A stretch of DNA of 64,000 nt, taken from Bryoerythrophyllum caledonicum. Its lineage: Eukaryota; Streptophyta; Bryopsida; Pottiales; Pottiaceae. The stretch lies in NCBI GenBank assembly GCA_963971425.1, contig OZ020515.1:36656371-36720370 (forward strand), in the 5' to 3' direction. Shown here piece by piece: positions 50,710 to 61,497 of this stretch (positions are counted from its first letter, which is position 1; the number at the start of each line of letters is the position of its first letter). The position numbers and the translations under genes are program-made. The notes beneath the pieces were generated by a model. That model ran no database searches. It was not told where the DNA came from and was given only the letters and a program-made list of their open reading frames with translations.

Positions 50710-50717
50710 CTTGGGCT
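50710..50717. repeat. Left 8-bp target-site duplication
   Basis: CTTGGGCT here is repeated exactly at 61490–61497, immediately outside the two CAGGGTTGT termini. Eight identical bases bracketing a 10.8-kb block are strong evidence for the element boundaries. Confidence 0.9.
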
Positions 50718-50733
50718 CAGGGTTGTCTACATA

Positions 50734-50796
50734 GACGGACAGGGGCCCAAAGACAACGGACGGACGGACAGGACGGACAGTATTTTTTGGCGGACA
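50734..50796. repeat. GGAC-rich block inside left terminus
   Basis: Irregular (GGAC)n units: GACGGACAGG, then CGGACGGACGGACAGGACGGACAG, ending with GGCGGACAG. A similar block lies inside the right terminus in the same orientation on the plus strand, so the two are direct, not inverted. Confidence 0.8.
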
Positions 50797-50902
50797 GTTG
50801 CGTGTAAAAAAAAATTACAAACCCTAAATCTAATTTTCAACGTACCCCCAGGTAAAACACGTGTGCATGACACGTTAGACGGCATTCCACGTCACATCAA
50901 GG

Positions 50903-51233
50903 GGCGAGCGCGTGCCTTCAGACCGCGCGCGCAGCATTTGGGGCCGGGCGCGTACCAATCTGGACCGGTCGCGTTCATGTAGGGCCGGGCGCGTTCATGT
51001 AGGGCCGGGCGCGTTCATACAGGGCCGGGCGCATATCCCTAAGGGCCTCGCGCGTGCATTCAGGGCCGGGCGCGTACGCGTCAGGGCCGGGCGCGTTGCA
51101 CTCAGGGCCGAGCGCGTACCGTTAGGGGCCGGGCGCGCAGCGTCACGGGCCTGGCGCGTTTCCATTGTAGGTCGCGCGCGCACCTACCTATCGGGGGCGC
51201 CCGATTAGGGGCCGGGCGCGCGCGATCGAACAC
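50903..51233 (+). repeat. Left subterminal GGGCCGGGCGCGT array
   Basis: About 14 imperfect units, mostly 20–22 bp apart, each with a GGGCCGGGCGCG core followed by a variable AT-containing spacer such as TTCATGTA. It is highly CpG-rich in an AT-rich neighbourhood. It runs into the assembly gap, so its length is a minimum. Confidence 0.9.
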
Positions 51234-51433
51234 NNNNNNNNNNNNNNNNNNNNNNNNNNNNNNNNNNNNNNNNNNNNNNNNNNNNNNNNNNNNNNNNNNN
51301 NNNNNNNNNNNNNNNNNNNNNNNNNNNNNNNNNNNNNNNNNNNNNNNNNNNNNNNNNNNNNNNNNNNNNNNNNNNNNNNNNNNNNNNNNNNNNNNNNNNN
51401 NNNNNNNNNNNNNNNNNNNNNNNNNNNNNNNNN
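51234..51433. other. Assembly gap of 200 N
   Basis: A run of exactly 200 N joins the left array to the 3' part of the damaged leftward gene. The round number suggests a placeholder rather than a measured size. GC-rich repeats are a likely cause. Confidence 0.99.
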
Positions 51434-53127
51434 CCTTCTGGCCCGAAAGGATTTAAACAAACCGGGCAAGCATCTTCATTTTGCGTGAAGCTTGCTGGTG
51501 TTGGCCATAATTTGCGTGGTGCCACGTTTGCGCTTGGTTGAAGGGCATGAGAAGACATAGCCTCTACGTGGTCCCATTCCAACTTTGCCCAGTCAATAGA
51601 TTACCATCTGGCAACAGAGGCAATTCAGTTGGAAACAACTCGTCGATGTGAGCCCAAGATGTGAGTCCAAAGTCACGGCGCGTATTATTCGTCAGATATT
51701 CGTTGTCAATCTTCTTGAATTCTATTGCCATTTGCCTCGCACGATCAACATTCAAGATGCATGCCACCTTCCATTGATAGTACTGCTCGCCCACCGATCT
51801 AATCATTTTTCGAAGGATGTCGTTTGCAGTGCGAAGCTGAACAAGTTCCGTGCTTGGATTAGCTGGGGAAAATGACAGAGAATCCTTGATGCCGATGGAA
51901 TCTACGAATGGCTATGCTGCTACAGTCGGCGGCGGTAGAAAAAACCAACGGACGACTAGCGAAGCGGTGACGCGGTGGTTTTGTCGGGGTCTCTAGCAAG
52001 CAGCTAGTAATGTTGCCAATAACATTGGCGATCATTGTCTCGTCCACACCTCGAGCAACTTCGCCAATATCAACCTGGCTGGCAACACGTTCTCGACGCA
52101 ACTCTTCTATTTCAGCTGCTTGCTTGGTGATAATATCACCCTTTTCACTGGATTGCAGCTTGAGGTTTTCAATCTCTTCTTGGAGACGTTGAATCATCTC
52201 ATCCTTCAAGCTGATAGAGTCCAATAACTCCTGGTGAGCATCGACGGTCGTACTTCCGGACCCTGATGCTACATGCCTGGTGTTGGAAGTGGTGACTACG
52301 ACATCCATCATTGGCATTTCATCTACAACATGAATGGGTTCTTCATCTCCAACACCCTCAAGCCTCGCGGCGGGTTCATCATCGCCAACAAGATTTACGA
52401 TTGGTAAATCTACTTGGCCAACTTCTTGAACCATCAGACGTCCTGCTTGATGGAGCTTCACTCGTTGCCGCTTTTTCCGTGACGCACGCGCCACTAGAGA
52501 AGTCGATGAACGCCGACCTACACGTCCATCTGAGTCCGAATCCGGTGATGAATCTGACTCTACTGGAGCTACTTCTTCTGGGCCATCCGTTTTCTGTGGT
52601 CCTAGTGCCGTAAAAGGAAACACTAGATGTTGCTCCCAAGGCACATCAGCATGCATCCATACCCTCGGCATTTTGGGAGTTTTCCGCACAGTCCTCCAAT
52701 CCACTCGCTTATTGAGAATGACCTCCGCATATACCATGCGAGCGAGATAGAGGGGACAATCATTGCGGGGCATGAATTCGAGCTCGTATAAGTATTGGTG
52801 AACTTGGAGGGCACGAGCTCGAAACGCCTTATTGATGCAATACTTCAAATTCGCCTTGTTTGCGCGACGATTTATTAAATGGCGATGTGGAGGAAACATC
52901 TTCGACAAATGGCACCACTCGATGTAATCCTCGCAAGTGATAGACGACCACGGCGATGGCTCATCTTGCCAACCCACAAATGCAATCTTCGCTGGATTGT
53001 TGAACACGTGCATCCGCTTCTTCTAGAGCTTCCCATGCCTCGCCCTATCTCTGTCTTTCTCCCTCTTCCTCTACGCGGTGGACATTGGTGGCTGTTGTTG
53101 GGCATCCGGCTCACTCTCACTCTCCAT
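51434..53127 (-). pseudogene. Damaged leftward gene for an acidic coiled-coil protein
   Basis: The reading frame opens at 53127 (MESESEPDAQQQPP) and hits TAG stops after 18 codons and again 16 codons later. It is then open from 53013 to 51859. The long part has a conserved-looking N-terminal domain (FVGWQDEPSPWSS, YLYELEFMPRNDCPLYLARM, WMHADVPWEQHL), an acidic serine-rich linker (ESDSSPDSDSD), a basic patch (RKKRQR, possible nuclear signal), and a coiled coil (DEMIQRLQEEIENLKLQ … EIEELRRERV). Frame shifts lead to NDILRKMIRSVGEQYYQWK (51564–51806 region), then a CPVCLNPFG metal-ligand-like motif (51440–51470) entering the N gap. It diverges from the kinase gene. I do not recognise the family; it could be the element's DNA-binding or transposase protein. 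Some breaks could be unrecognised introns. Confidence 0.65.
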
Positions 53128-53389
53128 AGCCAAACACTGTAAAAAAATCTACCAAAATGTTCGTTAACTACGCTAAGCTCTATCGGAAAAAAAAACTAAC
53201 AAAAATCACCACCTTGGATTTTAAAATAATCCAAGGTAGCAATGTTAATTAATTAGAACGGTGATCGATGCGGTGATGCAATATGTCGTATGGATGTGTG
53301 CAAATCTGGAGCCCCAATCGAAGATCACGCAATCAGCCACCTTAAAAAGATAGTTGAAGGCCACGATTTCCAATTGGAGTTTGTGAGAT

Positions 53390-53893
53390 GGGCTGGGCGC
53401 GCGCGACTATTTATACTAGAGGGCCGGGCGCGCACGTCGCATGGGAAACGCGCGCATGCCATATGGGGACCGGGCGCATACGCTGGGGTCTCGCGCGTAT
53501 GTTTCGGGGTCTCGGGCGTAGGGTTTGAGGCCTCGCGCGTAGGATCCACGGTCGGGCGCGTGGACATTGGGGCCGGGCGCGTGCGGGAACGGGTCGGGTG
53601 CGTGCGGGAACGGGTCGGGTGCGTGCGGGAACGGGTCGGGCGCGTGCGGGAACAGGCCGAGCGCGAACGGGAACGGACTGGGCGCGTGCGGGAATGGGCT
53701 CTATCATGGCGGTGGCAGGCTCTATTCGTGGGGGAACAGGCTCTATTCGTGGGGAACAGGCTCTATTCGCTGGAGGGCCGGGCGCGTACGCTGAAGGGCC
53801 GGGCGCGTTCGCTGGAGGGTCGGGCGCGTTCTCCGGAGGGCCGGGCGTGTACGCTGGAGGGCCGGGCGCGTTCTCTGGAGGGCCGGGCGCCTG
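53390..53893 (+). repeat. Central GGGCCGGGCGCGT array, left part
   Basis: Units of 21 bp are clearest at 53774–53890 (GGGCCGGGCGCGTACGCTGGA type). A CGTGCGGGAACGGGTCGGG variant is repeated at 53580–53660, and a GGCTCTATTCGTGGGGAACA variant near 53710–53760. The orientation matches the left subterminal array. The array is cut at 53893 by the copia element and resumes at 58803. Confidence 0.9.
53408..53415 (-). promoter_or_regulatory. Candidate TATA box of the leftward coiled-coil gene
   Basis: Read on the minus strand the sequence is TATAAATA, about 280 bp upstream of the 53127 start codon and at the left edge of the central array. A 9-bp-stem hairpin (CCTTGGATT…AATCCAAGG, near 53212–53236) lies in the presumed leader. 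Confidence 0.4.
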
Positions 53894-54058
53894 TATTGGA
53901 TCTCAAGAGTAGAAAAGATGAATTGATGTGAGACATAAGTCTCTTAAATACAATGAGTGTGCAAAAGCACAACAGTCATTGGCTGCAATGGAAGGTGTAT
54001 CCTAACCCTAACCTAGTGTGATGAATGTCTACAGTGAAGGTTTCTTCTAGTTACAACA
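53894..54058 (-). repeat. 3' LTR of the copia element
   Basis: 165 bp. It differs from the 5' LTR by five substitutions and no indels. The presence of both LTRs gives an insertion-age handle. Confidence 0.93.
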
Positions 54059-54072
54059 CCCTCCCTGAAACC
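54059..54072 (-). promoter_or_regulatory. Polypurine tract
   Basis: On the minus strand GGTTTCAGGGAGGG immediately precedes the 3' LTR start TGTTG, the usual place of the plus-strand primer. Confidence 0.75.
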
Positions 54073-54132
54073 TAAAGTGGAAGAAGTGATAAACACTCAA
54101 GGTCAATTTACAGAAAGAAAAAATTTATGGTA

Positions 54133-55200
54133 CTACAAATGTGGTCTTTGGTTGTCGTTGTCAGAGCTTACAGTAGAGTGGGTGCTACTATATTGGAGGA
54201 GTTGCTTGCAGTTGTTGAATTTGATGCGTCCAAGTGCCTTTGTGAGCATGTCTGCAGGTTGTTGATCTGTTGGTGTATAAGTGATGTTGACCAATCCTTT
54301 GTTGACCATATCTCTGACATAATTTAGGTGAATTTCGAAATGTTTTGTCTTGGAGTGAAATTGCGGGTTGTCAGAGATCTTGATGGCACTTTGGTTGTCA
54401 CATTGAATATTTGTTGGTTTGGTGGGGTCAAAACCAAGTTCTTGAAGTAATACCCGTATCCACATTGCTTCTTTGGTTGCCTCAACTAATGAACGGAATT
54501 CAGATTCGGTGGACGATAAAGCTATACAAGTTTGTTTTTTTGTGTTCCACGTGACTGGTGTATTGTTGATGGCAAAAATGTAGGCGCCAGTGGATTTTTG
54601 CTGGTCAAGGTCACCACCCCAATCTGCATCACTGTATCCAATGAGTTCGATCTTGTCTTGTCGAGAATAAAATAGACCTTGTGATGTTGTTCCGCGGATA
54701 TAGCGTAAGATGTGTTTGGCAGCTTGGAAATGGGCGAGTTGCGGGGATGAATTGAACCTAGATAGTAGGTTAATAGAATATGTAAGATTGTGCCTTGTGG
54801 TGGTGAGGAAAGAGAGTTTACCGATTAAAGATCGGTAAGTAGTAGGGTCAAAATTTGGAGTGCCAGTTTGACTTGAAGTAGTGAAACCGGGTGGTAGAGG
54901 GGTTTGTGTGGGATTGCACTCTTGCATCCCATAGTCTTCTAGTATGCTTTGAGCATAGGTGGCTTGGTGGATAAGGATGCCTCGGGATGATATGATAAAT
55001 TCTATTCCTGTGAACTTGGTGAGACTGCCAAGATAAGACATCGTGAATCGAGCCATTAACTTTTTTTTAAGCCATGCGATCATGGTTTTGTGATTGCCGG
55101 TGAGTAATAAGTCATCGACATAAAGTATGAGTATGATGATGAAATTACCTTGTCGAAATAAATATAGATTGTTGTCGGCGTGAGATGGTTGAAGTCCCAT
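54133..55200 (-). pseudogene. copia reverse transcriptase C-part and RNase H
   Basis: 355 open codons begin inside reverse transcriptase. The catalytic box LYVDDLLLTG is near residue 29. The connection domain follows, then RNase H with GYSDADWGG, LSSTESEFRSL and CDNQSAIKIS, carrying the expected acidic residues. The final HSKTKHFEIHLNYVRD block is intact. It is displaced by one frame from the upstream integrase/reverse transcriptase segment at about 55200, beside a six-A run on the coding strand. Confidence 0.9.
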
Positions 55201-57148
55201 GTTTTTTAAGCCAACGACTTATTTTCCGGTTCCAATTGCGGGCGGACTGTTTCAATCCATATAATGAACGATGTAGCTCGTAAACTAAATCCTCTTTTCC
55301 TCGAATTTTGTGCCCAGGTGGTTGATGCATGTAAACTTTTTCCTTGAGGTGACTGTTGAGATAGGCGGTTTTTACATCAAGGTGGTGTGTTTCCCATCCA
55401 AAAGTGGCGGCTAGAGCTGTAGCAATTTTAATTGTATTATACTTGGCGACGGATGCAAATGTTTCATTGTAATCAATACCTTCGCGTTGTTGGAATCCTC
55501 GTGCTACAAGTCGAGCTTTATAGCGTTCGGGTATGTCACCTTGAGCTGGTTTTAGTTTGAATATCCATTTTGAAGTGATGGCTCTGTGTCCGATGGGTAA
55601 CTTTGTTAAAGTCCATGTTTTGTTTTCCCCGAGGCTATCCAGTTCTTCCTTCATGGCTTGTGTCCAATGGGGGTCTTTCAAGGCATCTCGATATGTGAGC
55701 TCAGAATCTTCAATGGCTCCAATGTATCCCTCGAGTCTCGTGGAAGGTCGTCGCATGCGGTTTGAGCGTCGCAATAATGGGGTTGGTTCAATAATTTTTG
55801 GTGGAGGTGGAGAATGATACTCGGGTGTAACGGAGTGTGATGGAGCATCATTGGATGGAAGTTGGGATATTGTTGGGGGTTCCTGTGGAATGGATATGGC
55901 AGATGGTGAAATATGGGGAATGGATGAGACGGAGGTCGGGATAATCACCTTGAATTGGTCACATATGTGGTCGATTTGTGTGGTCATATTTGGGTGTGTA
56001 TATCCAGATTTGTCTTCATCAATTTTGATGTCTCGTGATATGATGATGCGTTGTGTTTGAGGGTCATAGCATCGATATCCCTTGGTCGATTCGTCACGTC
56101 CCAATAGTATACATTTTGTTGATTTTGATGACAGCTTGTGTCGTTTTTCTTTTGGGATATGTACGTATACTCGTGTGCCGAATGTTCGAATTTGGGAGAC
56201 ATTGGGTTTGTTGCCGGAGAAAGCTTGTTCGGGGGTCGTTTTGTTCAATGCTCTTGTCGAAAGCTGGTTTGTAAGATATGTTGTGGCTTTGATTGCTTCT
56301 GACCATAAGTGTTTTTGTAAGGAGTGTTGAAAACACAAGCACCTTGCCATTTCTACTATGGAGCGGTTTTTTCTTTCAGCTACTCCATTGCTTTGAGGAG
56401 TATAAGTTTGTGTGAATTCATGGTGAATCCCGGAGTTGATGAGTAATTCATCAAATGCTTTGGATGTGTATTCCGTTCCATTATCGGTCCGGAATGCTTT
56501 GATACGTTTGCCAGTCTGATTTTCAAGACGGTTTTTGAATTTTGTGAATTCGTGAATGACTTGGTCTTTGGTCTTGATGAGAGATATCCATAATTTTCGG
56601 CTATAATCATCAATAAATGTGACAAAGTAGTGTGCTCCGGTGATGGATGGCCGTTTGAAGGGTCCGCATACATCACTGTGTACTATTTGAAGTACCTCCG
56701 TTGTGTGTGGTGTGCTTCTAGAGAAGGTTTTACGGCTCTGTTTACCTTGTTGGCATGTGTCGCATATAATGTCGAGATATGGTAAACGTGGCAATCCTTT
56801 CACAATCCCTAATTTTGACATAATATGTAGGGTTTTGAAATTGATGTGCCCTAACCTTTGATGCCATAGTAATGTCTTGGCTTTGATTTTTTTATTGGGT
56901 TCTAATGCATTGAGTTCGGGCCATATTGTGGTTTCTAACTTATATAGCCCCTTGCCTTGCATTCTAGTCCCATATCCAATAGTTTCTTTGGAATAAGTGT
57001 CTTGGAGTATAACTCCTTTGTTGTGGAAGTTCACATATATACCCTCATCAGTAATACGTCCCACGGATAAAAGATTGCGTTGAATACCCGGCACATACAA
57101 AATATTTTTAAATTTCTTGGTTTTTCCTCCGGAGAGAATAACATTCAT
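55145..57148 (-). pseudogene. copia integrase and reverse transcriptase N-part
   Basis: The frame is open for 667 codons. A GAG-pre-integrase segment with the zinc-binding HHCC pattern (WHQRLGHINF … CDTCQQGKQ) is followed by the integrase core, with the DDE residues in VHSDVCGPF, FRTDNGTEY and GVAERKNRS. A proline/serine-rich linker leads to reverse transcriptase (WIFKLK, KARLVARGFQQ, HHLDVKTAYLN). The frame is lost after SLYGLKQSARNWNRKI. The active-site residues visible here are intact. Confidence 0.92.
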
Positions 57149-58560
57149 AGTGCCTTTGCCCTTGACTTTGTGTGGCTCACCCCCGCGGCTAACATTTGGC
57201 TACTACTAGCATATGCTTGCACATCGCTCAAAAGGCTAAGATCCCCCGTAACATGATGTGTTGCCCCGGAATCTAGTACCCATGTGGGCTGTGACTTTTC
57301 TGCCATGTTGGTTTCTACCTCACAAATATTTGTCTCACACATATATGCCTCTAAGATGCTTCCTGCACTCTCATTGCTACTGCTGGTGGAGTCGGATTCG
57401 GATTTAGGGTTTTTACCTTTGGAGATAATGTTGGCATGCCCATGTGGGCGTCGTTTGAGTTTTCCTTCCAAGGTTTTCACTTGTTCAATAGCCTGGCGCA
57501 ATAGTTGACAATCCCGCTCAATATGGCCTTCTTCTCCGCAGTAGTTGCAGATCCAGTTTCGTTTGGAGCGTTCCCCACGTGGGTTCCCTCGTGCTCCTTG
57601 GTACTCACGACTTTTGCCTTGGGAACTCCGCCGGTTCCCCACTGTCCGTTGACCGTCCCCTCCTTGCCTGCGAGCTTCGCCGTCTCTATGGCGGCCACGG
57701 TCTGCGAACTTCGGCGTCTCCTCGTGGCCGCGGTCTGTTCTTTGAATGTTGCCGCGCTTGCCGTTCTCTCCTCGCCGATCTTGCTCGCCGCGGTTATTGT
57801 TCCTCCATCGCCAGTTGTCGTTGAGGCCGTCGCCTCTTGCTTCAGTGCCTGCCTTCTTAGGGTTTGCGTTCTTGAAAGCTAGAGCTTCAGCTTCGCCCTC
57901 CTTGTTGGCGTCTAGTTTCAGCTGCAGTTCTTCATCAAGCAGCCGTGCTTCTATTTCGAGAAACGATGGTAGTTCCTCTTTGCTGGTTTGAGTCCTGCAA
58001 AACAACTTATACTCAGCAGGCAATGAGTTCAGTAGCAGTAACGTGCACAGATCCTCAGGTATGCCAACTTCCATGCTCTTCAACTGATCTATTGTGTCCT
58101 TCACATCAGTCATGTACTGCTCCATTGTGATGGTTTCTTCCTTGCGAAGAGATACTAATTTTCTGAGTAGCATGAGACGGCGAGATCCAGATCTCGACTG
58201 ATATCTGTCTTTCAATGCTGTCCAGAGAAGATGCGGGTCCTCGAATCTACACACAACTGGCACGACTGAGTCTTTTACTGAATCAGTAAGTGCCTGCAAT
58301 GCTATCCTTCTACCTTCTCTTTCTCTCTCAGATGCAGATCTAGATAGAGACGTAATACAGTAATTCCATATTTGGTGCCTCTCTAGAATCCGTTTGAGAC
58401 GAAATGCCCACACTTGATAGTTGCCCAATCCATCAAGCCGGCTTGATTCAGGGATTGAGATCTCTATCTCTCTCCTACTAGTGTGATTTGTCTCTGATGT
58501 AGCATCTAGCATGTTTGATGTGCGCTCAGCTATTTCACTGATTGCCTCATCTGTGTCCAT
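57145..58560 (-). pseudogene. copia gag and start of protease
   Basis: 471 codons. A UBN2-type gag domain (LDGLGNYQVWAFRLKRIL … LLLLNSLPAEYKLF) is followed by an arginine/glycine-rich segment, one CCHC zinc knuckle (CNYCGEEGHIERDC) and the protease active site WVLDSGATHHV. The frame is lost about 30 residues later beside a GCGGGGG run, where the next open segment takes over in a different frame. The start is the first ATG, 78 bp inside the 5' LTR boundary. Confidence 0.92.
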
Positions 58561-58620
58561 GCCTCCTAGGTGCTACTGATCTATCTCTAGAACTATGACC
58601 TAGATCTCTGTAGATCTGAA

Positions 58621-58637
58621 CCTGCGCTTTGATACCA
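58621..58637 (-). promoter_or_regulatory. Primer-binding site
   Basis: On the minus strand TGGTATCAAAGCGCAGG follows the 5' LTR directly. It fits the plant copia pattern TGGTATCAGAGC complementary to part of initiator methionine tRNA, with one difference in that core. Confidence 0.85.
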
Positions 58638-58802
58638 TATTGGATCTCAAGAGTAGAGAAGATGAATTGATGTGAGACATAAGTCTCTTAAATACAATGA
58701 GTGTGCAAAAGCACAGCAGTCCTTGGCTGCAATGGAAGGTGTAACCTAACCCTAACCTAGTGTGATGAATGTCTACGGTGAAGGTTTCTTCTAGTTACAA
58801 CA
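58638..58802 (-). repeat. 5' LTR of the copia element
   Basis: 165 bp, paired with the 3' LTR. On its outer side lies GCGTG, a 4/5 match to the 5-mer at the other end. Confidence 0.93.
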
Positions 58803-58930
58803 GCGTGGCATCTTGGGCCGGGCGCGTGGCATCTTGGGCCGGGCGCGTTCACTGGAGGGCCGGGCGCGTACGCTGGAGGGCCGGGCGCGTGGTATCTCGG
58901 TCAGGCGCATGCAGACGCGCATGCGCGGCC
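58803..58930 (+). repeat. Central GGGCCGGGCGCGT array, right part
   Basis: About five more 18–21-bp units in the same orientation as 53390–53893. The array ends just before the TATA box of the kinase gene. Confidence 0.9.
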
Positions 58931-58947
58931 AGGGTTTTCCATTTCAC

Positions 58948-58954
58948 TATAAAT
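58948..58954 (+). promoter_or_regulatory. Candidate TATA box of the kinase gene
   Basis: TATAAAT lies 175 bp upstream of the kinase ATG and about 20 bp after the central array. With the minus-strand TATA at 53408 it makes a divergent promoter around that array. Confidence 0.5.
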
Positions 58955-59122
58955 GGAACAGATTCTAATATCAATCACATAGGCTCCTCTCAAGTGGCTC
59001 CTTGTCCTAGTACTATTTGTACTTTGCTAGGAACTAAGAGGGGGCCACCACACATTGGGTCCGGGGGAGGTTTTGATTTTTTTTTTTAAAATTATAGTTT
59101 GTGTAGGGTTGTGATTATTGCA

Positions 59123-60709
59123 ATGGCCACCGATCGTAATACTGGGAAGCGGCCGGCGTATGTTGATTTAGATGCTCCAGATGCATCGGAGCTTCCACCT
59201 ACTAGCGTTGCGGAGTCGAGCCGCAATCCTTCCGATGCACCGAAGGCACCGTCGAAGAGGGCGAAGCAAAAAATGTCTGCGCACGAGAAGGATGCCGGTT
59301 ATCCACCAAAGGAGTATACCGCATTTCTTCGAGGTGTGGCAATACAATACTACCGTCAATGGTGTGAAACTGACGTGGTGCGATTCCGTCAAGTTTATTT
59401 GGAGAAGGGAGAGCCAGGAATGATGTGCTTACAGACCGACCTCCAGTCGAAATTTGAGCGCGCTCTGGAGAGTTCTGAATCGTTCAAGGATGCATATGGC
59501 ATGTATCACTATGCCTCATTCATGGAGAGAGTAATCACTCAATGTACGAGTAATGCATCGCATGTATTTGATTGTGAGGTGAAAAAACCTCGCGGGGGCC
59601 AGCATCAGCCACGAGACTTGGAACTCCGCAAGTTCCTCGAAGGTGTGAAGACCACCATCGGCAGGTTTTCAAGCTCTCGTACGAGAGGTATGCCTTGGAA
59701 TGAACAAGCGATGAAGTCAGCCATGGAGGCGCATATGTTGCACAGCGTGCAATTTCTTCCACAAGATATCGGAGTTTATGGACTTTCCGGATATGACGCC
59801 GTTGGTGGATACGGAAAGGTTCGGAAGGTCCGCATCGTGGGTGTGCAAGCCATTTCGGCATACATGGAGTTTGCCGGGAAAATGCCAACGGCGTCTCATC
59901 CGAAGGAGAAATTTAGACAACGGTCTCACGAGGCCATGATATGTCATGTTGCACACCCAAGAGTTATAAAGTTTTGGGCGGTGAATACAAAGAATATGGA
60001 GGCGTACACATTGTGGTGGAATGGTGGTAGTTGGGCCCATTTTAAAACCGTCGATTTAAAGGCAAATCCGGCGGCTTCAAGCAACTCAATCCTTTCAGCT
60101 CCATATATTTCGGCGGAGGATACAACACAAATCTTAGCCTTCCGGAAGAATAGAGCAAGACTTGCGTGGGCTTTGATGTGCACCATGGCCCAAGTCCACA
60201 AAGCAAATGTCATTCACAATGACATCGCTCCCACAAACGTGCTTCTCCACATTCCTCCAGAGAAACCAGGATCCGTCTTCATAGGCGTTTGTGATTGGGG
60301 AATTGCGAGCCGAGTATCACACGAAGAGCCATCAAAATATGGATTTCGGACAGACACGGAGCTGGACAATGAACGCCGTAGACGACATTGGGTAGCTCCA
60401 GAGTTGTTTTACAAATTCGGCCCACAAGATTCGGAAACGGCATTGGATGTGATGCAGCGGCGTCACCAATACACACAGCTCGCCGATTTGTACTCCGTTG
60501 GGTGGATGGCTAGAGCGATTTGGGAGAAAGAATCTGACTCAACATTCTTCAAATCAACCGTCAACTACGCAGCTTTTCAAGTGAAGATCGAGAAATTACT
60601 GGAGCGAGATCCCCTCAAACGTCCAACACTCTGCAAAGTGGTTGACGAGCTAATGGCTAAACCATTCATCTTTGAAGTTCCGGACGCTTGCTTCCGCTAT
60701 GAGATATAG
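59123..60709 (+). CDS. Transposon-borne protein kinase, 528 residues, intact
   Basis: Uninterrupted frame from the ATG in GCAATGGCC. Residues 1–~215 form a non-kinase N-terminal region with a basic patch (KRAKQK), the YTAFLRGVAIQYYRQW helix and a Ser/Pro-rich start. The kinase domain follows: glycine loop GGYGKV (228–233), candidate ATP lysine K253 in FAGKMP, candidate αC glutamate E270, catalytic loop HNDIAPTNVLL (365–375, D367 and N372 present, HRD arginine replaced by asparagine), metal loop CDWG (390–393) instead of DFG, APE (425–427), αF aspartate D455 and a closing arginine at 500 (DPLKRPT). The key catalytic residues are kept, so activity is plausible. It lies inside the 8-bp-flanked transposon and diverges from the damaged coiled-coil gene. 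The substrate and role in the element are unknown. An origin by capture of a host kinase is possible, but the long specific N-terminal region suggests a dedicated element gene. Confidence 0.9.
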   Translation: MATDRNTGKRPAYVDLDAPDASELPPTSVAESSRNPSDAPKAPSKRAKQKMSAHEKDAGYPPKEYTAFLRGVAIQYYRQWCETDVVRFRQVYLEKGEPGMMCLQTDLQSKFERALESSESFKDAYGMYHYASFMERVITQCTSNASHVFDCEVKKPRGGQHQPRDLELRKFLEGVKTTIGRFSSSRTRGMPWNEQAMKSAMEAHMLHSVQFLPQDIGVYGLSGYDAVGGYGKVRKVRIVGVQAISAYMEFAGKMPTASHPKEKFRQRSHEAMICHVAHPRVIKFWAVNTKNMEAYTLWWNGGSWAHFKTVDLKANPAASSNSILSAPYISAEDTTQILAFRKNRARLAWALMCTMAQVHKANVIHNDIAPTNVLLHIPPEKPGSVFIGVCDWGIASRVSHEEPSKYGFRTDTELDNERRRRHWVAPELFYKFGPQDSETALDVMQRRHQYTQLADLYSVGWMARAIWEKESDSTFFKSTVNYAAFQVKIEKLLERDPLKRPTLCKVVDELMAKPFIFEVPDACFRYEI

Positions 60710-60879
60710 ATATTTTGACTTAGCGTATTGATAGTGAAGGTTTCAATTGTTGATCATTTTGCAATACGTACTAGCATTGTGATGTAACGGTGCTTTTTGC
60801 CCATCTCGTGATAAATATAAGATTAACATTTTTCATACACATTGCGATATGAAGCTCATGCATGTTAAGAAGTGAGAGA
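60710..60879. other. 3' flank of the kinase gene
   Basis: AT-rich stretch between the kinase stop codon and the right array, presumably holding the 3' untranslated region and polyadenylation signals. An AATATAAG-type sequence occurs near 60816. Confidence 0.4.
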
Positions 60880-61320
60880 GCGCGCGCGACCCCTAAATTC
60901 AATACCCATACGCGCGCGACCCCAAAGGCCACGCGCCAGGCCTAGCCCCCTCCACGAACGCGCCCAGTCCTCCCCACGAACGCACGCAGCCCCTCTACGA
61001 ACGCGCGCGACCTTGGCCGGACGCGCCAGCCCCTCCAAGTATGCGCCCGGCCCTTCACCGCGCACGCCCGGAGACTTGCGTTACGCGCGCAGTCCTCCCT
61101 GCACGCGCCCAGCCCCTCACAGTATGCGCCTGGTCCACCCCTGTACGCGCCCAGCCCAACATGGTACGCGCCCGGTCCTCCCCTGTATGCGCCCGGCCCC
61201 TTCAATGCGCGCCCAGCCCATATCCGCACGCGCCCGGCCCCTTCAGTATACGCCCGGCCCATCTCCGTACGCGCCCGACCCCTTCATGCGCCCGCCCCCT
61301 GACCGCACGTGCGCGACCCT
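60880..61320 (-). repeat. Right subterminal array, inverted relative to the left
   Basis: About 20 units with an ACGCGCCCGGCCCCT-type core, the reverse complement of the left and central arrays, 19–23 bp apart. Opposite orientation of matching arrays near the two ends is typical of subterminal transposase-binding regions. Confidence 0.9.
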
Positions 61321-61408
61321 GTTGACGACGTGTCAGCCACGTAGTCGCCTTCGTGGCAGTGGGTAAATTGATTTACCTCGAGTCATGGTCAAACTAGGGT
61401 TGACCCTT

Positions 61409-61478
61409 ATCGGACGGACAGCAGCCTCTATCGGACGGACATCCGGACGGACGGACACTACCGGACGGACGGACGGCT
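61409..61478. repeat. GGAC-rich block inside right terminus
   Basis: Repeated CGGACGGAC units, such as TATCGGACGGACAGC and CCGGACGGACGGAC, reach to within ten bases of the right terminal CAGGGTTGT. Confidence 0.8.
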
Positions 61479-61489
61479 GAACAACCCTG

Positions 61490-61497
61490 CTTGGGCT
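61490..61497. repeat. Right 8-bp target-site duplication
   Basis: CTTGGGCT, identical to 50710–50717. Confidence 0.9.

Follow-up and report, generated by a model that had tools for sequence, protein, structure and literature searches.

A 64,000-nucleotide stretch of the Bryoerythrophyllum caledonicum genome (Pottiaceae; contig OZ020515.1 of assembly GCA_963971425.1, positions 36,656,371 to 36,720,370 of the forward strand; hereafter the window) contains, at 50718-61489, a gapped copy of a large four-gene transposon of the hAT superfamily that is interrupted by a copia retrotransposon, an identification in which we have very high confidence. In addition to its transposase, this transposon encodes a protein kinase, a RING protein (gene A) and a further protein that has a domain in common with the latter (gene C). 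Judging from sequence comparison, the kinase is an old, long-held component of the element and not a recent capture, because the gene order recurs together with the transposase and in a second family, and because homologues are present in public sequences. This anatomy, combined with the mechanism proposed below, is probably the best explanation of the locus as a whole; the mechanistic part by itself is tentative.

The window copy is a single mobile unit, as a preliminary description of this DNA had proposed: its perfect 8-bp duplication, matching termini and inverted subterminal arrays are all confirmed. The terminal 9-mer CAGGGTTGT and its reverse complement ACAACCCTG each occur once in the window, and the chance of 8/8 identity for random pairs of 8-mers drawn from the window is 3.5e-5. 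GC-rich arrays of 21-bp units point inward from either end of the element, and a third array lies between the divergent genes; counted with up to two mismatches, forward and reverse occurrences of the motif GGGCCGGGCGCG number 13 and 0 for the left array, 20 and 0 for the central array with its two parts taken together, and 1 and 15 for the right array; gene A, the copia element and the kinase have none, and the remainder of the window has a single reverse occurrence. The first 153 bases of the element match at least 40 places in the genome, the window counted.

The intact 528-residue kinase of the preliminary description is upheld by an open reading frame at 59123-60706 that matches PF00069 (E 7.3e-13), and the predicted model combines a kinase fold, identified by structure match, with a helical N-terminal domain. 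All 32 sequences of an alignment have Lys253, and at least 90% have each of Asp367, Asn372 and Asp391; a pseudokinase was rejected because the catalytic residues are retained. The long N-terminal region and the altered HND and DWG motifs, from which it had been argued that the gene belongs to the element and was not recently captured from a host, are common to the family (most members have CDWG; the copy in L035 has CNWG), and that argument stands. Homologues in public sequences are 32-80% identical to the kinase; no relatives were found in the viral contigs or the prokaryotic genome contigs searched. The damaged leftward gene said to diverge from the kinase is also present: gene A spans three successive frames in the window, contains the CPVC motif and a coiled coil, and is interrupted by exactly 200 N.

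No transposase was found among the open reading frames or Pfam matches of the assembled window copy, which holds a 200-N scaffold gap where one is expected. The earlier statement that the element has no recognisable transposase is thus true of this assembled copy, but not of the family, since copies with the same ends hold a hAT transposase. The absence from the window copy is best explained as an effect of the gap, because the N runs in 36 loci and the window (19 runs in 17 distinct places, two being counted in two overlapping loci) are all exactly 200 bases long and several are inside elements; alternatively, there may have been a true deletion. Some of the runs within elements lie beside GC-rich arrays, and these elements seem to interrupt the assembly and to conceal genes.

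The genome (437 Mb) was searched for other copies, the lists of places holding only the best candidates, so that all counts are lower bounds. Twenty other copies of the same family (family 1) were fetched as 9.9-kb stretches, along with a further series of loci (E). Among the 20, gene A sequence is kept in 16 and most of the right end in 18. Longer copies possess, to the left of gene A, a second leftward gene (gene C) and hAT transposase reading frames, giving the order left end, array, transposase (-), gene C (-), gene A (-, with RING), array, kinase (+), array, right end. The copy E033 (C2:29101100-29113200) has GTCACTGC on both flanks (8/8) and contains transposase, gene C, gene A and kinase. 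It was found via its left flank, having been missed by the routine end scan, which required both ends and flanks matching at 6/8 or more, because the last base of its right end is changed. The scan was positive for the window, L010, L023, E016 and the family-2 element described below, and flank identity is 8/8 in the window, E033, L010 and L023. Hence further copies with the same termini exist, some of them hold transposase and kinase together, and 8-bp duplications are found in E033, L010 and L023 as well. The full-length element would measure about 14 kb if the usual distances between parts are summed.

The transposase is identified as hAT by DUF659 (PF04937, E 6e-29 in the E033 transposase piece) and by Dimer_Tnp_hAT (PF05699, 7e-7 in L031 and 7e-6 in L036, both above the cut-off), and the short terminal inverted repeats are of the CAGGG type (CAGGGTTGT in family 1, CAGGGTTGTCAT/CAGGGTTATCAT in family 2). 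No Mutator (MURA) transposase was found; hAT domains are present instead. The stretches CTDGW, TDNAPN and CERNWS in the family-2 transposase frame may represent the hAT DDE triad. The preliminary description had suggested that this may be an undescribed transposon group with no recognisable transposase. The assembled window copy would fit such a group, but a hAT transposase accompanies the kinase in E033, within the same ends and duplication, and in family 2, and the window has its gap at the corresponding place; for the family, a transposon without transposase was rejected on these grounds, a group outside the known superfamilies is not supported, and we give the idea almost no credence.

The genes are also associated genome-wide. 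The lists contain at least 82 places for the kinase, 147 for gene A and 148 for the transposase, and pairs were counted within 15 kb. The transposase is to the left of the kinase on the opposite strand in 20 of at least 21 kinase-transposase pairs, the exception being the nested inverted copy of L023; gene A is to the left on the opposite strand in 27 of at least 30 kinase-gene A pairs (median distance 3.8 kb); and in all of at least 38 gene A-transposase pairs the two genes are on the same strand in the same order, most often some 6 kb from each other. When places were shuffled 200 times on the 13 largest listed contigs (sizes of two estimated), the means were 1.1-2.0 pairs and the maxima 4-7, compared with 21, 30 and 37 observed there. 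At least nine kinase copies are accompanied by the two partners, arranged in this order, and the distance from a match to the window's left end to a listed transposase is 2.51-2.57 kb in 10 of the 40 listed places, E033 included.

A second family in the same genome has the same organization. The distant homologue P0016, used as query, detects at least 80 other kinase places (41-44% identical to P0016, 29 of them stop-free), which may comprise more than one subfamily. The family-2 element (L036+L035) is 12,253 bp long and gapless, has CAGGGTT ends and flanks ACCCTTTG and GCCCTTTG, and encodes transposase, gene C (-), gene A (-) and kinase (+) in the order of family 1. Its kinase is open, gene A is an open frame of 777 codons with RING-H2 spacing, and the transposase frame has 1010 codons, the N-terminal part being in a different frame. 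The arrays at this one family-2 locus consist of a palindromic 31-32-bp unit, GGGGCGGGGACGTCTCCGCCCC, in contrast to the 21-bp unit of family 1. Among 80 kinase and 59 gene A places listed for family 2, gene A is on the opposite strand to the left in 34 of 34 pairs within 15 kb, with a spacing of 2.33-2.53 kb in 33; shuffling gave a mean of 0.33 pairs and at most 4. Identity between the families is 34% for the kinase, 42% for the RING half of gene A and 45-60% for transposase pieces, and the two kinases sit in different supported clades of a tree (26 rows) that includes public homologues.

These comparisons bear on gene capture, by which a non-autonomous hAT derivative would have taken a host kinase in the Pack manner and been moved by an unrelated hAT, nesting having put the kinase beside the transposase. 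Plant transposons are established captors of genes (review PMC13317346), and nested insertion is seen in L023; nevertheless, order, strand and spacing are fixed across tens of pairs, the same arrangement recurs in family 2 despite 34% kinase identity, and other public sequences hold full-length homologues of both kinase and gene A. Capture is accordingly very improbable, and recent capture from the host was rejected, given the same arrangement with so divergent a kinase.

The interpretation as a four-gene hAT with its own kinase has several observations weighing against it. Of the 82 listed kinase places, 61 lack a listed transposase and 53 a listed gene A at a distance of up to 15 kb. The genes of E033 hold stops, so that this copy is not an active element, and its gene C holds a single 200-N gap; E016 has such a gap between gene C and transposase, and every family-1 copy read contains one. 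The routine end scan was negative in 18 of the 20 fetched stretches, which often stop short of the left end, and in E019, E027 and E028; flank identity is 7/8 in family 2, read at one locus, and 6/8 in E016. Pfam did not call a BED finger in the transposase piece, where a Cys/His pattern is visible by eye, and matches to the Hermes structure in PDB were not significant (E 0.058). Target duplications of hAT elements prefer nTnnnnAn, a preference that the present duplications do not show. RING scores of the copies in this genome, including PF13639 for L035, are below the Pfam cut-off, and the model of the gene A N-terminal domain gave no fold match, a result indicating neither a new fold nor the want of a known one. 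Kinase variants found in two or three copies are at 0.14-0.96 of neutral, and singletons range from 0.57 (transversions) to 1.47 (CpG transitions), so that the constraint described below is carried by few sites.

Incomplete copies were considered individually. Gene A is absent from four of the 20 fetched copies (L009, L010, L017 and L024), each with a 200-N gap, which argues only weakly for the gap as the cause because 14 of the 20 hold such a gap anyway. L010 (2.9 kb, kinase only) and the nested copy in L023 (3.9 kb, transposase only) were not accepted as minimal forms, owing to a 200-N gap at the missing part; both may nonetheless be true deletions. The nested L023 copy is the only one found with a hAT transposase and no kinase, and a kinase-less hAT of this kind is not established because its interior holds the gap; additional kinase-less copies may exist beyond those listed. 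In L018:900-8393 the outer flanks, TTCTCAAT and TTGAGAAG, are near reverse complements with no direct duplication, and misjoining is possible because a scaffold gap lies within this copy.

Across 20 gene A proteins the RING ligands C488, C491, C506 and C525 are invariant and H511, C514 and C528 are conserved in at least 90%, with standard spacing; public homologues are 27-67% identical, and a RING family is annotated (precomputed) in 8 of 31 gene A homologues. One domain is common to genes C and A (44% identity across 115 residues, single frames, window versus E019), and the gene A frame of the window has 32% identity to gene A of family 2 (312 residues) and 50% to gene C of family 2 (122 residues). 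Genes A and C (L035:4410-6701 and 2296-2946) are 66% identical in family 2, compared with 44% in family 1; gene C may have arisen from gene A by more than one duplication, or conversion may have taken place. The same 20 gene A proteins have invariant D331, S332, L333 and F335 in a QDSLSF-like stretch, and D191, S192, D193 and G194 in at least 90%; the two stretches are possible candidates for phosphorylation or docking sites.

The family-1 kinase occupies at least 82 places, i.e., the window and 81 others at 87-96% identity. Variants common to at least four of 23 family-1 copies comprise 6 replacement and 19 silent changes, and their normalised ratio of replacement to silent change (N/S) is 0-0.48 across four mutation classes. 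The pattern, from a small sample, fits an element gene that is constrained while mobile and decays once inserted. Alternatively, the kinase might act in trans for the benefit of the host cell or of its defence, the element being retained for that reason; its catalytic residues are conserved, and the variants found in many copies look constrained. Yet only 7 of the 82 listed places (window included) are stop-free, and the kinase travels with the element, because most of the fetched copies retain the right end (18 of 20) and gene A sequence (16 of 20). Service to the host is therefore very unlikely, although no separate search was made for host copies outside elements.

The mechanism proposed for the four-gene transposon assigns a part to each product. 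The transposase would cut at the CAGGGTT ends and make the 8-bp duplications. The domain common to genes A and C would bind the GC-rich tandem arrays of the element itself; these arrays are situated beside the genes and in the spaces between them, and are wholly different between the two families. The kinase, divergent from gene A over a common array, would phosphorylate the product of gene A or C, the transposase or a silencing factor of the host, and the gene A RING would direct ubiquitination; jointly they would hold the promoters of the element open or determine how much it transposes. If so, this transposon lineage may possess its own phosphorylation and ubiquitination circuit (kinase, RING protein and RING-less paralogue) that licenses transposition via the array DNA and host silencing proteins, the arrays and their reading domains having been replaced together as families split; we hold this to be possible but doubtful. 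With the same anatomy, kinase and RING protein may instead mainly restrain or time the transposase by phosphorylation and turnover, without being directed at host silencing. The many copies, mostly decayed (75 of 82 listed kinase places hold a stop), would fit a self-limiting element, and the QDSLSF-like and DSDG stretches of gene A would offer potential kinase targets; this alternative, which leaves unexplained the arrays beside the genes and their complete change between families, is conceivable rather than probable.

A typical hAT has one gene, and cut-and-paste elements normally carry little beyond the transposase. The present elements resemble hAT elements of the Ac/Hermes type (DUF659 branch) in their 8-bp duplications, CAGGG-type short ends, DUF659 and C-terminal dimerisation domain, but differ in having three additional conserved genes, a length of about 12-14 kb and GC-rich tandem arrays beside the genes. 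In Spm/CACTA elements a second element protein, TnpA, acts on subterminal repeats; duplications are of 3 bp and the transposase is different. The VANDAL elements of Arabidopsis (Mutator superfamily) encode an extra protein, VANC, that acts on noncoding tandem arrays varying among related families (PMC5735166). They are proposed as the nearest mechanistic parallel, by analogy, to the putative reading of arrays by genes A and C, unlike which they have a Mutator and not a hAT transposase; the kinase and RING protein are features of the present elements. The VANC system also involves binding of the arrays by the encoded protein and removal of methylation. The nearest published hAT with an extra gene that was found is that of Pyrenophora tritici-repentis, which is about 5.6 kb long, carries a histone H3-like gene and has nearly identical copies; the available main text of its paper (PMC3538342) makes no mention of "kinase", and that of a 2026 review of plant gene capture (PMC13317346) mentions neither "kinase" nor "hAT".

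Features of the window element are given in Table 1.

Table 1. Coordinates of the element and its parts in the window.
Feature	Position	Strand	Basis or remark
Left copy of target-site duplication, 8 bp, CTTGGGCT	50710..50717	.	same as 61490-61497
Left terminal inverted repeat CAGGGTTGT, followed by GGACGGAC-type subterminal repeats up to ~50800	50718..50726	+	sequence match
Left subterminal array, ~21-bp units (GGGCCGGGCGCG), GC 0.71	50880..51233	+	repeat/motif counts
Scaffold gap, 200 N	51234..51433	.	longer copies hold end of gene A, gene C and hAT transposase here (alignment)
Gene A remnant, broken: N-terminal domain, acidic Ser stretch, coiled coil, start of RING (CPVC)	51434..53139	-	remainder in gap; open relative L035:4410-6701 (-)
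Central array, left part, separating the two divergent genes	53380..53892	+	motif counts
Copia LTR retrotransposon in central array; LTRs 53894-54058 and 58638-58802	53894..58802	-	flanks GCCTG/GCGTG
Central array, right part	58804..58912	+	motif counts
Kinase gene, 528 aa, intact; helical N-terminal domain (~50-200) and kinase domain	59123..60709	+	ORF, Pfam, alignment, model
Right subterminal array, GGGCCGGGCGCG-type unit inverted	60880..61320	-	motif counts
Right terminal inverted repeat ACAACCCTG, ends at 61489	61481..61489	-	sequence match
Right copy of 8-bp duplication CTTGGGCT	61490..61497	.	sequence match

The copia retrotransposon, absent from the preliminary description, divides the central array, into which it inserted after the hAT. 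Its long terminal repeats (LTRs) are 165 bp each with 5 differences between them, and its flanks are compatible with a 5-bp duplication carrying one change; the gag frame is open and the pol frame shifts near 55145-55218. Other reading frames of mobile-element type were encountered in or near element copies elsewhere: a Tc1/mariner-type frame inside a copy (L028:1765-2394, +, HTH_Tnp_Tc3_2 9.7e-14); similar frames beside or within two copies (L030:425-3249, -, with DUF7869 1e-43; L029:3232-4989, -), probably of another mobile element; and, in copy E027, a third hAT transposase lineage (L032:1420-2736, +, Dimer_Tnp_hAT 3.6e-11, 44% identical to family 2), which may belong to a third kinase-bearing family.

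A literature search by title or start of abstract, mostly without full texts, returned no kinase-bearing hAT, and a four-gene hAT with its own kinase and RING protein appears to be new, an earlier description being possible. Scaffold gaps such as those found here can make a transposon seem to have no transposase, which calls for caution, and if the interpretation is true, genome annotations may list kinases of such elements as host kinases. Two families with the same genes and different arrays in one genome constitute a natural swap experiment on how transposons fight or obey silencing. Conservation of a kinase and a RING protein in a hAT would mean, if true, that these elements encode their own signalling.

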